DNA from: Thermodesulfovibrio sp.
GTDB lineage: Bacteria; Nitrospirota; Thermodesulfovibrionia; Thermodesulfovibrionales; Thermodesulfovibrionaceae
Length of the DNA: 64,000 nucleotides
Assembly (NCBI GenBank): GCA_020725335.1
Contig: DYFF01000002.1
Span: 62,001 to 126,000 of the forward strand
Direction: 5' to 3'
The notes below the pieces were generated by a model that was given only the letters and a program-made list of their open reading frames with translations, did not search any database and had not been told where the DNA came from. Positions 31,071 to 53,538 of this stretch are shown here, one piece after another; positions within the stretch are counted from its first letter, which is position 1; each line of letters begins with the position of its first letter. The translations under genes were made by a program, and so were the position numbers.

Positions 31071-31168
31071 GGGAGTGTATGGGGTTCTGGTGTCCCCCCT
31101 GGACTTCAAATCCAGTGTTGCCTGTGAGGAGCAGGCATGGTGGGTTCGATTCCCACACGCTCCCGCCA
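31071..31168 (+). tRNA. selC: tRNA-Sec (UCA anticodon)
   Basis: 98-nt selenocysteine tRNA with encoded CCA end. The 8-bp acceptor stem (GGGAGTGT with ACGCTCCC) stacks on a 5-bp T stem (GTGGG/CCCAC around TTCGATT), giving the 8+5 bacterial tRNA-Sec fold. The anticodon stem CTGGA/TCCAG holds loop CTTCAAA with anticodon TCA at 31106-31108. The long variable arm has a TGCCTG/CAGGCA stem. It shows that UGA can be read as selenocysteine in this organism. selA, selB and selD are not in the window. Confidence 0.96.
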
Positions 31169-48536: not shown

Positions 48537-49395
48537 TTTTCTTCAACCAAAAATTATAGTATAAATTACCTGTAAGTAAAGTTACAACTGTTAAAATCAT
48601 GCCTGCTATTACATCAATAACATAATGATATCTGCAGTATACAGTGGAAATTATTAATAATATTACTGGTAATAGAGTTATCCAGAAAAATTTTTTATTA
48701 TATTGATAAAATATCAATAGAATCAAAAGAGATATTCCCACATGCCCACTCGGGAAAGCATCTCTTTTTATTCCCTCCAATGAATTTAGAATATTATTAA
48801 TAGTATCTGCTAATAAAATACCATCAAGTTCATTTTGAAACATATGAGCAATGCTAAATCGAGGTCCTAAGGCTGGGAAAATAATATAACCTATATATGA
48901 GAGATAAAAACAAAGAAGAACGAGAAATAAAGCTTTTTGAAAATCTTCTTTTTTGCCCTGTCTAAGCAGATAAGCACCTAATATAAAGGGAAGTAAATAG
49001 TAAACACAGTAAGAAAGTTGCATTATTTCTGTTAAATAGGGAGTAGAATATTTTTCCAAATAAACATAGGGATAAAAACCGAAAATTTTATAATCAATTG
49101 CCAAAAAAACATGATCCATATCTTTGTTGATATATGGAATTATTTCCCCAATAGTATCAAAAGCTATTAACACAGAAAATGTAGGAAACGCTATGTTTTT
49201 TAAAATATTGATAAATTTATCATTATTGAACTGGCATATAAAAAGTTGAAAAATTGCCATAGATATATAAATTACTAAAAGATAAGATGCCATAGGTATT
49301 TTCGGATAAAAAAAGCCAACCAATAAGCTAAGACCAATAAAAAAAACAATATTTAATTGAGCTGATGGATAAAGTTTTAAAAATTGTTTCGTCAT
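48511..49395 (-). CDS. PAP2-superfamily membrane phosphatase/phosphotransferase
   Basis: 294-residue membrane protein with about six helices. The catalytic motifs are GPRFSIAHMF (about 180), RDAFPSGHVGISLLIL with the PSGH His (about 216) and CRYHYVIDVIAGM with the nucleophile-region His and Asp. The AUR1/inositolphosphotransferase-like arrangement suggests action on a lipid phosphate. It shares one base with the yacP-like gene and overlaps the next gene by 26 bp. Confidence 0.88.
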   Translation of the reverse strand: MTKQFLKLYPSAQLNIVFFIGLSLLVGFFYPKIPMASYLLVIYISMAIFQLFICQFNNDKFINILKNIAFPTFSVLIAFDTIGEIIPYINKDMDHVFLAIDYKIFGFYPYVYLEKYSTPYLTEIMQLSYCVYYLLPFILGAYLLRQGKKEDFQKALFLVLLCFYLSYIGYIIFPALGPRFSIAHMFQNELDGILLADTINNILNSLEGIKRDAFPSGHVGISLLILLIFYQYNKKFFWITLLPVILLIISTVYCRYHYVIDVIAGMILTVVTLLTGNLYYNFWLKKNGNSFHKG

Positions 49396-49841
49396 TATAG
49401 TTTTTCAATTGTCCTTATTATTGCTTTATCTTTTTTTGAAAGGGTTATACCCTTTTGTTTTTCAAAATAAAATTTTTCTCCCATCAAAATATCAAAAAAA
49501 ATGGAAGAATCTATAGCAACGCAGTTTTTTCTCCACACTGTTTTTTCTATATCTCGGTCAGAGGTCACTACAATCCAAAAAGTCTTATCATTTTTAAGAA
49601 TTCTCTTTATAACGTCATCAGCTTTTTCACCTGCGCCCGAATAGATTATTCTTATACCACCTCTTATTTCACATGTTTCTTTTCCAGGACCTTCCTTATA
49701 TCCATCAAATACTAAAGTTATATCATGCTTTTTCTCTTTAGAGTAATTAATCAAATTTTGTATTAAATTTTCTCTTGCTTTTTTTATATCTTTGTGATAA
49801 ATTCCTATAAGATTGTAACCATCTATTAGAATTTTACTCAT
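49395..49841 (-). CDS. YacP-like NYN-domain nuclease
   Basis: 148-residue PIN/NYN-fold RNase of the Rae1/YacP family, which in Bacillus cleaves mRNA on the ribosome. ILIDGYNLIGIYH at the start, LVFDGYKEGPG in the middle, YSGAGEKADDVI, and VVTSDRDIEKTVW supply the acidic active site. The gene begins 33 bp after the stop of the candidate selenoprotein and heads the housekeeping run. Confidence 0.88.
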   Translation of the reverse strand: MSKILIDGYNLIGIYHKDIKKARENLIQNLINYSKEKKHDITLVFDGYKEGPGKETCEIRGGIRIIYSGAGEKADDVIKRILKNDKTFWIVVTSDRDIEKTVWRKNCVAIDSSIFFDILMGEKFYFEKQKGITLSKKDKAIIRTIEKL

Positions 49842-49874: not shown

Positions 49875-50066
49875 TTAAGCTCGATCACACGATCGGCGAG
49901 ATATTATATCCCATGTTTCTTCGTCTATTTCTTCGATATATTCGGAAACTTTAAATTCTGCTCCGCATTCAATACAGCAGAGCACTATACGCCTTCAATA
50001 AAAAAAGACTGTTATATTATTTCTGCAAAATTTACATTTTACATTTTTTAATACTCTTTTTCTCAA
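49875..50066 (-). CDS. Small dual-CxxC selenoprotein (in-frame UGA)
   Basis: Read through one TGA (49995-49997), this minus-strand frame encodes about 63 residues: CKFC, then NNITVFFY, the UGA-coded residue, RRIVLCCIECGAEFKVSEYI, an acidic stretch EEIDEETWDII, and SRRSCDRA to TAA. Two CxxC pairs flanking the Sec give a zinc-ribbon-like redox protein, and it resembles the family I know as dual CXXC motif small (seleno)protein, where Cys or Sec precedes RR. The start is TTG 50064-50066, with AAGGAG nine bases upstream; an ATG at 50087 has no ribosome site. Read as a stop, the TGA would leave two useless halves. Function unknown; redox or metal handling inferred. Confidence 0.8.
49959..49984 (-). 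promoter_or_regulatory. Candidate bacterial SECIS element
   Basis: In the transcript the stem starts 10 nt after the UGA: arms UGCUCUGC and GCGGAGCA form 8 pairs (one U-G), closed by a 10-nt loop UGUAUUGAAU whose second base is G. Bacterial SECIS elements are stem-loops directly 3' of the UGA with a guanine at the start of the apical loop; spacing and size fit. The hairpin lies wholly in coding sequence and the flanking region is AT-rich, so a stem this strong is unlikely to be chance. Confidence 0.7.
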
Positions 50067-50108
50067 AAGATTATTCTCCTTGTTCATTATATTTTATAAT
50101 ATCTTAAC

Positions 50109-50645
50109 ATGGAAAGATTTTCCTTTATCAATAAGGGAGAAATTCTTTTGTGGGATAATATTCCAGAATTAATTCAACTTGTCGATAAAGTTGATGCCCT
50201 TTTTAAAAATTTTCCAGAATTGTTTGTGGAATCTATGAATTTAGCATTAGAGATTAAAGATCATATGTTAAAACTTGATCCATTCATGGATGCCTATTCA
50301 AAGAAAGTCTGTTCTTTATGTGCAAATATATGTTGTCTTAATAAGAATAGCAGATATGAATACGACGACCTGATTTACATAGTTGCTTTAAGAGAGAACT
50401 TTCCTATTCCTGATAGGAATCTCAAAGAAAATGAACCCTGTTATCTTCTTACTGAGAGAGGATGTAAAATACCCCGATATTTAAGACCCTTGAGATGTAA
50501 CTGGTATTTATGCAAAGACCTTTTAAAGGAGATGGAGTCAGCACCTGCAAGAGTTTTTAGAGAATTTTCCAATACGTTTAATAAAATGCTATATATAAGA
50601 CAGCAGATGCTGAACTCCTTTTTTAGATCACTTTCCGGTATCTAA
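50109..50645 (+). CDS. Cysteine-cluster protein, YkgJ-like
   Basis: 178-residue soluble protein that I place near the YkgJ (zinc/iron-chelating) family without certainty. Cysteines are grouped as KVCSLCANICCLNKN (about 67-81) and EPCYLLTERGCKIPRYLRPL followed by RCNWYLCKDL (about 116-145), eight in all, enough for a metal cluster. A TATAAT at 50095-50100 lies 8 bases before the ATG and there is no ribosome site, so the mRNA may be leaderless. It diverges from the selenoprotein operon and overlaps the convergent htrA end by 18 bp. Confidence 0.75.
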   Translation: MERFSFINKGEILLWDNIPELIQLVDKVDALFKNFPELFVESMNLALEIKDHMLKLDPFMDAYSKKVCSLCANICCLNKNSRYEYDDLIYIVALRENFPIPDRNLKENEPCYLLTERGCKIPRYLRPLRCNWYLCKDLLKEMESAPARVFREFSNTFNKMLYIRQQMLNSFFRSLSGI

Positions 50646-52099: not shown

Positions 52100-52744
52100 C
52101 TACTTTTGAAGTTTCTCCCAATCCTTCAAGAATTTTTCAATACCTATATCTGTTAAAGGATGTTTAATTAATTGTTTTATTACAGAATATGGAATTGTCG
52201 CAATATCAGCTCCAATTCTTGCTGCTTCAAGAACATGGAGAGGGTTACGTATGCTTGCCACAATAACTTCTGTTTCAAAATCATAGTTTTCAAAAATTAT
52301 CTGTATATCTCTTATCAGATCCATACCGAAATGACTTATATCGTCTAACCTACCAACAAACGGACTAACATAAGTTGCACCTGCTTTTGCTGCAAGCAAT
52401 GCTTGCGTCGCTGAAAAAACCAGAGTTACATTTGTTTTAATTCCCTCCTTTGAGAGTTTTTTTACTGTTTTTAAACCATCCTCAGTCATTGGAATTTTAA
52501 TTACTATATTAGGAGCAACTTTGCTTAGCTCGATAGATTCCTTTAGCATGTCTTCGTAATTAAGAGATACCGCTTCAGCGCTTACCGGACCATCAACTAT
52601 TTGACATATTTCTCTAAGCAAACTTATTGGTTCTTTACCTTCTTTAGCAAGTAAAGAAGGATTAGTAGTTACACCATCAATAACTCCAACTTCCCATGCT
52701 TTTTTAATCTCTTCAAGATTTGCTGTGTCAATGAAAAATTTCAT
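52100..52744 (-). CDS. tal: Transaldolase, TalC/FSA type
   Basis: 214-residue short transaldolase family protein. [20 protein letters not shown] and [13 protein letters not shown] open it; the Schiff-base Lys is K83 in [32 protein letters not shown] and SPFVGRLDD follow. Either transaldolase or fructose-6-phosphate aldolase activity is possible. It overlaps the YkgJ-type gene by 4 bp and lies 11 bp before htrA. Confidence 0.93.
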
Positions 52745-53538
52745 TCCTCTTCCTCCTGCATAACTTTAGTTACAAAATTTTCTCCTTCTTTTTCTATTAT
52801 TAATCCGTAAAAGGGAGCTATCTCAAAAAGACTTCTTCCTAAAAGTAAAGGTAAAACGTCATCAGATAGTGAAAGTTTTTCTTTAAGCCAATCTCTTAAA
52901 GAGGAGTCATAAAGAATCATTTCTGCAATTTTTTCTATGTTTTCTTGCTTATCTTTTTTTAATTCACATATGATGTCTTCGAATTTATGAAGAGAACATT
53001 TTTCTTCATGTTTTTTTATTGCTTCGGTTAAAAAGTCTATTCTACCAAATAAGTCAGCCCTTGTTAGTCTTCTTGTTTCAATTCCTGTTATGGAAATATT
53101 TTGTGACCAACATTCATAAATTCTACATACTACAGGTCTTTGTTCATAAATTGTGCAGCCTTCTGCAGGGTCATAAAAAAGACATGTAAAGCTTCCAAAA
53201 ATTGGTTTTATTTTTATTAGTTCCATTGAAGAGTAATACATCTCTCCATCTATAGCAGAACGTATTTTTTCCCCTTCTCTTATAGTATATAAGTCCCTTT
53301 CAGAAATAATGCCTTTTGTGAGAAGAACGATGTCTTCTTTGAGAATTATTGGAGTATCTCTTCTACAGCACTCTCCACAACGATCACAGCCATTTTTTGT
53401 TGAAAATATCATTTTTTTCGGTTTTCCATCGGGATCGTAACCCCTCACTCCGCTATAAGTCTCTCTGTCAGCTTTTTTAGGTTTGTAGATTGTGCCATCA
53501 GGTAAAACTATTTCAAAATTAGAATTTTCCTCTGTCAT
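52741..53538 (-). CDS. YkgJ-family cysteine cluster protein
   Basis: 265 residues. The N-terminal cluster is [18 protein letters not shown] (about 49-66), with later cysteines in [20 protein letters not shown] and VCRIYECW, the pattern of YkgJ/UPF0153 proteins thought to chelate zinc or iron. A C-terminal helical region of about 100 residues is specific to this protein. AAGGAG precedes the ATG, inside the upstream gene, which it overlaps by 20 bp. Function not established. Confidence 0.85.

Follow-up and report, generated by a model that had tools for sequence, protein, structure and literature searches.

The closest described system to the gene analyzed here is NF041197, the "dual CXXC motif small (seleno)protein" family, which is listed as OS_HP3, RxU, in Table 1 of a 2026 review (PMC13188914). 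NF041197 belongs to the predicted selenoprotein families that have no assigned function; it is already catalogued with its Sec form included (PMC13188914), and its function is undescribed in the literature searched, as the original prediction had stated. Its members share a CxxC motif, nine residues, Sec or Cys, six residues, and a second CxxC motif. The bacterial SECIS model given in the same review places a G at the first or second position of the loop, at a distance of 16-37 nt from the UGA (PMC13188914). Two further proteins are relevant to the neighborhood of the gene, YkgJ (PF03692), with a CxxCxxCC motif, and FliB, which has a CX4CX3CC motif and binds a [4Fe-4S] cluster (PMC8598068). 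Literature searches on YkgJ and on FliB, with the terms taken separately, revealed no link to selenoproteins.

The window, by which we mean the whole 64,000-nucleotide stretch of Thermodesulfovibrio sp. DNA that was analyzed, contains on its minus strand (50087-49875) a frame with a single TGA and a small, Cys-rich product. The read-through product is MNKENNLLRKRVLKNVKCKFCRNNITVFFY-U-RRIVLCCIECGAEFKVSEYIEEIDEETWDIISRRSCDRA-stop, and the parts of the gene are as follows.

49875-50066, minus strand: selenoprotein gene, with a TTG start at 50066-50064, a TAA stop at 49877-49875, and 63 residues, assigned from the NF041197 match and the homologous starts in the genus
49995-49997, minus strand: in-frame TGA, predicted to encode selenocysteine at position 24 in the 63-residue form, from the TGA in 80 and the TGT or TGC in 11 distinct homologs
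50076-50081, minus strand: predicted Shine-Dalgarno sequence AAGGAG, 9 nt before the TTG, assigned from the sequence

The read-through product matched NF041197 with 48.1 bits (E 9.2e-13), compared with a curated cut-off of 40 bits, and the match extended over residues 18-69, spanned the TGA, and covered almost all of the 53 model positions. Such a match is far beyond chance; it bears out the earlier claims that one TGA interrupts the otherwise open frame of one small protein and that this protein belongs to the dual-CXXC family. By this comparison, the window locus genuinely adds a member to a selenoprotein family that was already known. The spacing of its motifs is CKFC-9-U-6-CIEC, and the CxxC/Sec layout forms the invariant columns of the family alignments. 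The window protein differs from the catalogued family in having an additional Cys beside the second CxxC (LCCIEC), and in most of its genus the residue before Sec is Tyr, not Gly. Relatives that align across the TGA were found in 80 of the 196 Nitrospirota genomes sampled (82 matched, and two weak partial matches were discounted), nearly all with exactly one TGA, and relatives were present in 72 of 247 Desulfobacterota genomes when a second subgroup was counted in. These searches rest on query alignment A2, alignment A1 being too diverse. A plasmid search gave no match. A 41% match in the window's own genome (L002) was rejected as a chance hit without the CxxC-Sec-CxxC layout.

The second subgroup, subgroup B, has the same CxxC-Sec-CxxC layout and scores 36-42 bits with NF041197, so that this GxU group, which resembles a Lar-like zinc ribbon, lies near or above the family cut-off. 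It differs in its CxxCGG..I.G.U..A.V.C..CG pattern and in being without the C(N/D)R tail. By motif alone it is probably the 'hypothetical protein DW', GxU, of PMC13188914, and NF041197 appears to combine two subfamilies. Subgroup B occurs in Desulfobacterota (L124-L138) and in one genome of the window's genus (G009; L141 2648, plus strand); a search of the window's own genome did not find it.

Recoding was assessed from the codons at the Sec site. Among 91 distinct family-A sequences the codon was TGA in 80, TGC in 7, and TGT in 4; the collecting pattern demanded TGA or Cys at this site, and the non-TGA members that it missed also had Cys there. The original prediction had proposed a search for homologs with Cys at residue 31 (ATG numbering; residue 24 in the TTG form), and 11 such distinct sequences were found, the same genus included. 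The Cys forms are scattered over G005 (the window's genus), G168, G054, L083, and one Desulfobacterota group, and in G005 the site is TGT and the hairpin described below is broken. Both recoding and Cys/Sec exchange are shown by sequence comparison, and the natural Sec-to-Cys replacements in close relatives provide matched pairs for asking why selenium is used. That the TGA is instead a true stop, or marks a decaying gene that has left two unrelated fragments, follows from just the raw frame under standard translation and is extremely improbable, being refuted by homologs from two phyla whose alignment continues on either side of it, relatives with Cys at the site, and conservation of the hairpin and of the downstream codons. 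The same homologs in Nitrospirota and Desulfobacterota uphold the view that the gene encodes a real selenoprotein. A C-terminal Cys is present in 66 of the 80 Sec sequences and could act as the resolver of the selenol. In the Desulfobacterota Cys lineage the C terminus reads IIYD where others have C(N/D)R plus one residue.

The machinery for decoding was then compared with the distribution of the two forms.

31071-31168, plus strand: tRNA-Sec, needed for TGA decoding and found in the window as predicted

SelA, SelB, and tRNA-Sec were all found in the window's genome. No SelA match was found in G005 (72% complete) or G168 (99%), the tRNA-Sec model scored 52 and 40 bits in these genomes versus 71-74 in other genomes, with neither hit convincing, and G005 had no SelB over the cut-off. 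G054 and several Desulfobacterota keep SelA yet use the Cys form, so Sec can be exchanged for Cys without the machinery being lost. G054 also has two SelB matches over the cut-off. For G045 (locus L140, 99% complete) a TGA-form gene was present but SelA and SelB were not found; we rejected this case as a paradox because its 71-bit tRNA-Sec match makes an assembly gap probably the better explanation.

A candidate SECIS element lies downstream of the TGA.

49959-49984, minus strand: SECIS-like hairpin, with arms 49984-49977 and 49966-49959 and loop UGUAUUGAAU at 49976-49967

Its stem has eight pairs (UGCUCUGC/GCGGAGCA), and the loop UGUAUUGAAU begins 18 nt from the UGA, in agreement with the SECIS model of PMC13188914. 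The minimum free energy was -12.8 kcal/mol, a stability reached by 2% of synonymous variants, and the z-score against dinucleotide shuffles was a modest -1.95. In 14 distinct Sec sequences of the genus, six of the eight pairs form in 14/14 and the two outer pairs in 13/14, one pair varying as U.G, U-A, or C-G; in the Cys homolog L163 the stem is broken. Other Nitrospirota have a shifted hairpin, GCUGCAU/AUGCGGC with a GGA or GUC loop, 23 nt after the UGA. Among 67 non-genus Nitrospirota Sec sequences, six of its seven pairs are present in 61 to 67 sequences, and in nearly all a G occupies the first or second loop position. When folding was compared with that of synonymous variants, the mean z was -1.40 for Sec and -0.64 for Cys sequences (Mann-Whitney p 0.023), a contrast that is significant yet small. 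Conservation of the hairpin by itself is no proof, because the RCxxCG coding constraint fixes the same bases too.

The start of the gene was assigned by comparison within the genus, where homologs begin with TTG, GTG, or ATG directly before a (R/K)(K/R)xxLKNxK stretch. The alternative start, an ATG at 50087, overlaps with a TATAAT and is not common to the genus relatives. These alignments support TTG, rather than the upstream ATG, as the start of the window gene, in line with the TTG start behind AAGGAG proposed originally, and the product has 63 residues because translation would begin at 50066, nine bases past AAGGAG.

The predicted structure of the selenoprotein (pLDDT 78, pTM 0.56) consists of three strands followed by short helices. 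Fold searches with this model recovered zinc ribbons most often (Rpc10, Rpb9, and ZifS) at non-significant scores (best E 0.33), and Pfam and PDB sequence searches with the selenoprotein returned generic zinc fingers only. The window protein resembles the Lar, LysW, and S27e zinc ribbons in its pair of CxxC knuckles, placed on predicted short beta strands, and differs in that its similarity to them is below cut-offs. To our knowledge, zinc ribbons of the Lar/LysW/S27e type have no Sec between the knuckles. One explanation for these resemblances is a structural role, in which the protein, as a zinc ribbon, would dock on a large complex such as RNA polymerase, the ribosome, or a methyltransferase, as do Rpb9/Rpc10, S27e, and Trm112, with Sec serving as a redox sensor or as a replaceable Cys. 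Weak similarities in profile and fold searches, to S27e, LysW, Lar, Trm112, RPC10, and ZifS, point in this direction, as does the conserved C-terminal tail of the family, DEID..W..I..R.C(N/D)R, which resembles a docking motif. All of these similarities are, however, below thresholds and typical for any zinc ribbon, and a purely structural role leaves the strong retention of Sec unexplained; we consider this explanation unlikely.

The most consistent neighbor of the selenoprotein gene is a divergently transcribed cysteine-cluster gene, of which the original prediction had made no mention.

50109-50645, plus strand: cysteine-cluster protein of 178 residues, CxxC-x3-CC ... C-x6-GC ... RPxRC-x4-C, proposed as the partner from its head-to-head position with the selenoprotein gene and from co-occurrence

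Its product resembles YkgJ in the CxxC-x3-CC motif and the later GC and RPxRC cysteines. It differs in being below detection by Pfam and NCBIfam, neither of which gave a match (the PF03692 gathering score was not reached), so that the resemblance is one of motif only. The predicted structure is helical (pLDDT 83), and a fold search of the PDB gave no match to any solved structure. By analogy with FliB, whose related motif binds [4Fe-4S], the partner might bind Zn or an Fe-S cluster.

The partner adjoins the selenoprotein gene in 20 genomes from three families and is divergent in every case, so that comparison shows a conserved pairing of the two genes. A partner profile identified 68 of the 196 Nitrospirota genomes, 63 of which also have the selenoprotein; the full distribution was 63 with both, 5 with the partner only, 17 with the selenoprotein only, and 111 with neither, a phylum-wide comparison in which Sec use or an anaerobic lifestyle could drive the presence of both genes. 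Within one order, in which SelB was over the cut-off in nearly all genomes tested, the corresponding numbers were 49, 3, 13, and 8 (Fisher p 0.0014, a value that ignores shared ancestry). Some genomes have both genes but far apart. In Desulfobacterota, with the count restricted to strong matches (E below about 1e-20), the partner was found in 21 of 40 Sec-form genomes versus 0 of 16 Cys-form genomes, and the two genes were not adjacent in the loci examined. Because the partner is wholly absent from the Desulfobacterota Cys lineage, the NF041197 protein must work without it there. This conserved head-to-head gene, which tracks the Sec form, offers a concrete hypothesis for the target of NF041197.

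On the basis of these patterns we tentatively favor, at somewhat less than an even chance, a selenoprotein that acts on the cysteine-cluster partner by means of a zinc-ribbon scaffold bearing one selenol. As a member of the RxU/xGU branch of NF041197, the protein would be produced by inserting selenocysteine at the UGA, aided by the SECIS hairpin beginning 10 nt further downstream. One structural metal site, zinc-ribbon or rubredoxin-like, would most likely be formed by the pair of CxxC motifs, and the selenol held between them on the ribbon would be the reactive group. We infer a physical partnership, with chemistry directed from the selenoprotein to its neighbor: thiol/selenol redox reactions or metal hand-over to the divergent YkgJ-like protein, itself a likely Zn or Fe-S binder, might for example hold the partner's cysteines in the reduced state, or preserve its cluster, in anaerobes. 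Counting against this reading are the Nitrospirota genomes that have one of the two genes alone, the partner-free Cys lineage and non-adjacent loci of Desulfobacterota, the non-significant fold matches, and the Sec sequences that lack the C-terminal Cys. The stronger proposal is more doubtful: that the two proteins make up a dedicated and so far unrecognized system for redox or metal transfer in anaerobic Nitrospirota and Desulfobacterota, where the zinc-ribbon selenol reduces, metallates, or demetallates the partner's cysteine cluster.

A general small redox or metal-handling protein that serves many clients, as a thiol reductant or as a carrier of metal or selenium, is also a possible explanation, and the cysteine-cluster gene would then be a mere frequent neighbor that shares the intergenic promoter region. 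Such a role is consistent with the wide variation of neighbors between lineages and with the Desulfobacterota that have the Cys form and no partner; against it, the partner and the selenoprotein also co-occur where they are unlinked, and their co-occurrence holds inside a single order of nearly universal Sec capability. We favor action on the partner, with the general carrier close behind, because a ribbon with a selenol fits redox or metal transfer and because of the FliB analogy. The literature searched contained no report of the partner-gene link, the within-genus Sec/Cys pair, or the frequent leaderless-looking promoters, which is no proof of novelty.

The remaining neighbors and the upstream region were examined as well.

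49395-49841, minus strand: yacP-like gene (PF05991), next downstream, a neighbor that is not generally conserved
50086-50115, minus strand: promoter-like TTTCCA-18-TATAAT, with 10 of 12 matches, assigned only by its likeness to the consensus, such sites in this region being not above chance in number

The original prediction had placed the selenoprotein gene first in a yacP-led operon. YacP does follow directly downstream in the window, as it does in some relatives, but other genes occupy this position in many members of the genus and in most other lineages, and we rejected the yacP operon as the general context. The gene often seems, from its upstream sequence, to have its own promoter: a TATAAT-like hexamer ends 4-9 nt before the start codon in 21 of 41 Nitrospirota members (loci L049-L092), compared with 5.5% of ORFs as the background in these loci, a difference whose p-value is overstated by the relatedness of the sequences. 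This placement suggests leaderless mRNAs in these Nitrospirota members. Neighbors of the selenoprotein gene in Nitrospirota include yacP, MBL-fold, PurH-like, and DsbC-like genes, and those in Desulfobacterota include pyrE, fabD, asd, and def-like genes, the latter names being read from the sequence and not from a database search. Four Cys-form members from Desulfobacterota (L102, L106, L107, and L112) are located directly behind pyrE-like genes. A separate YkgJ-like gene (PF03692, 20.4 bits; cut-off 23) is directly downstream of the selenoprotein gene in 11 of 46 loci. The window itself encodes a second cysteine-cluster protein near the selenoprotein gene, at 52741-53538 on the minus strand, with a PF03692 score of 43 bits.
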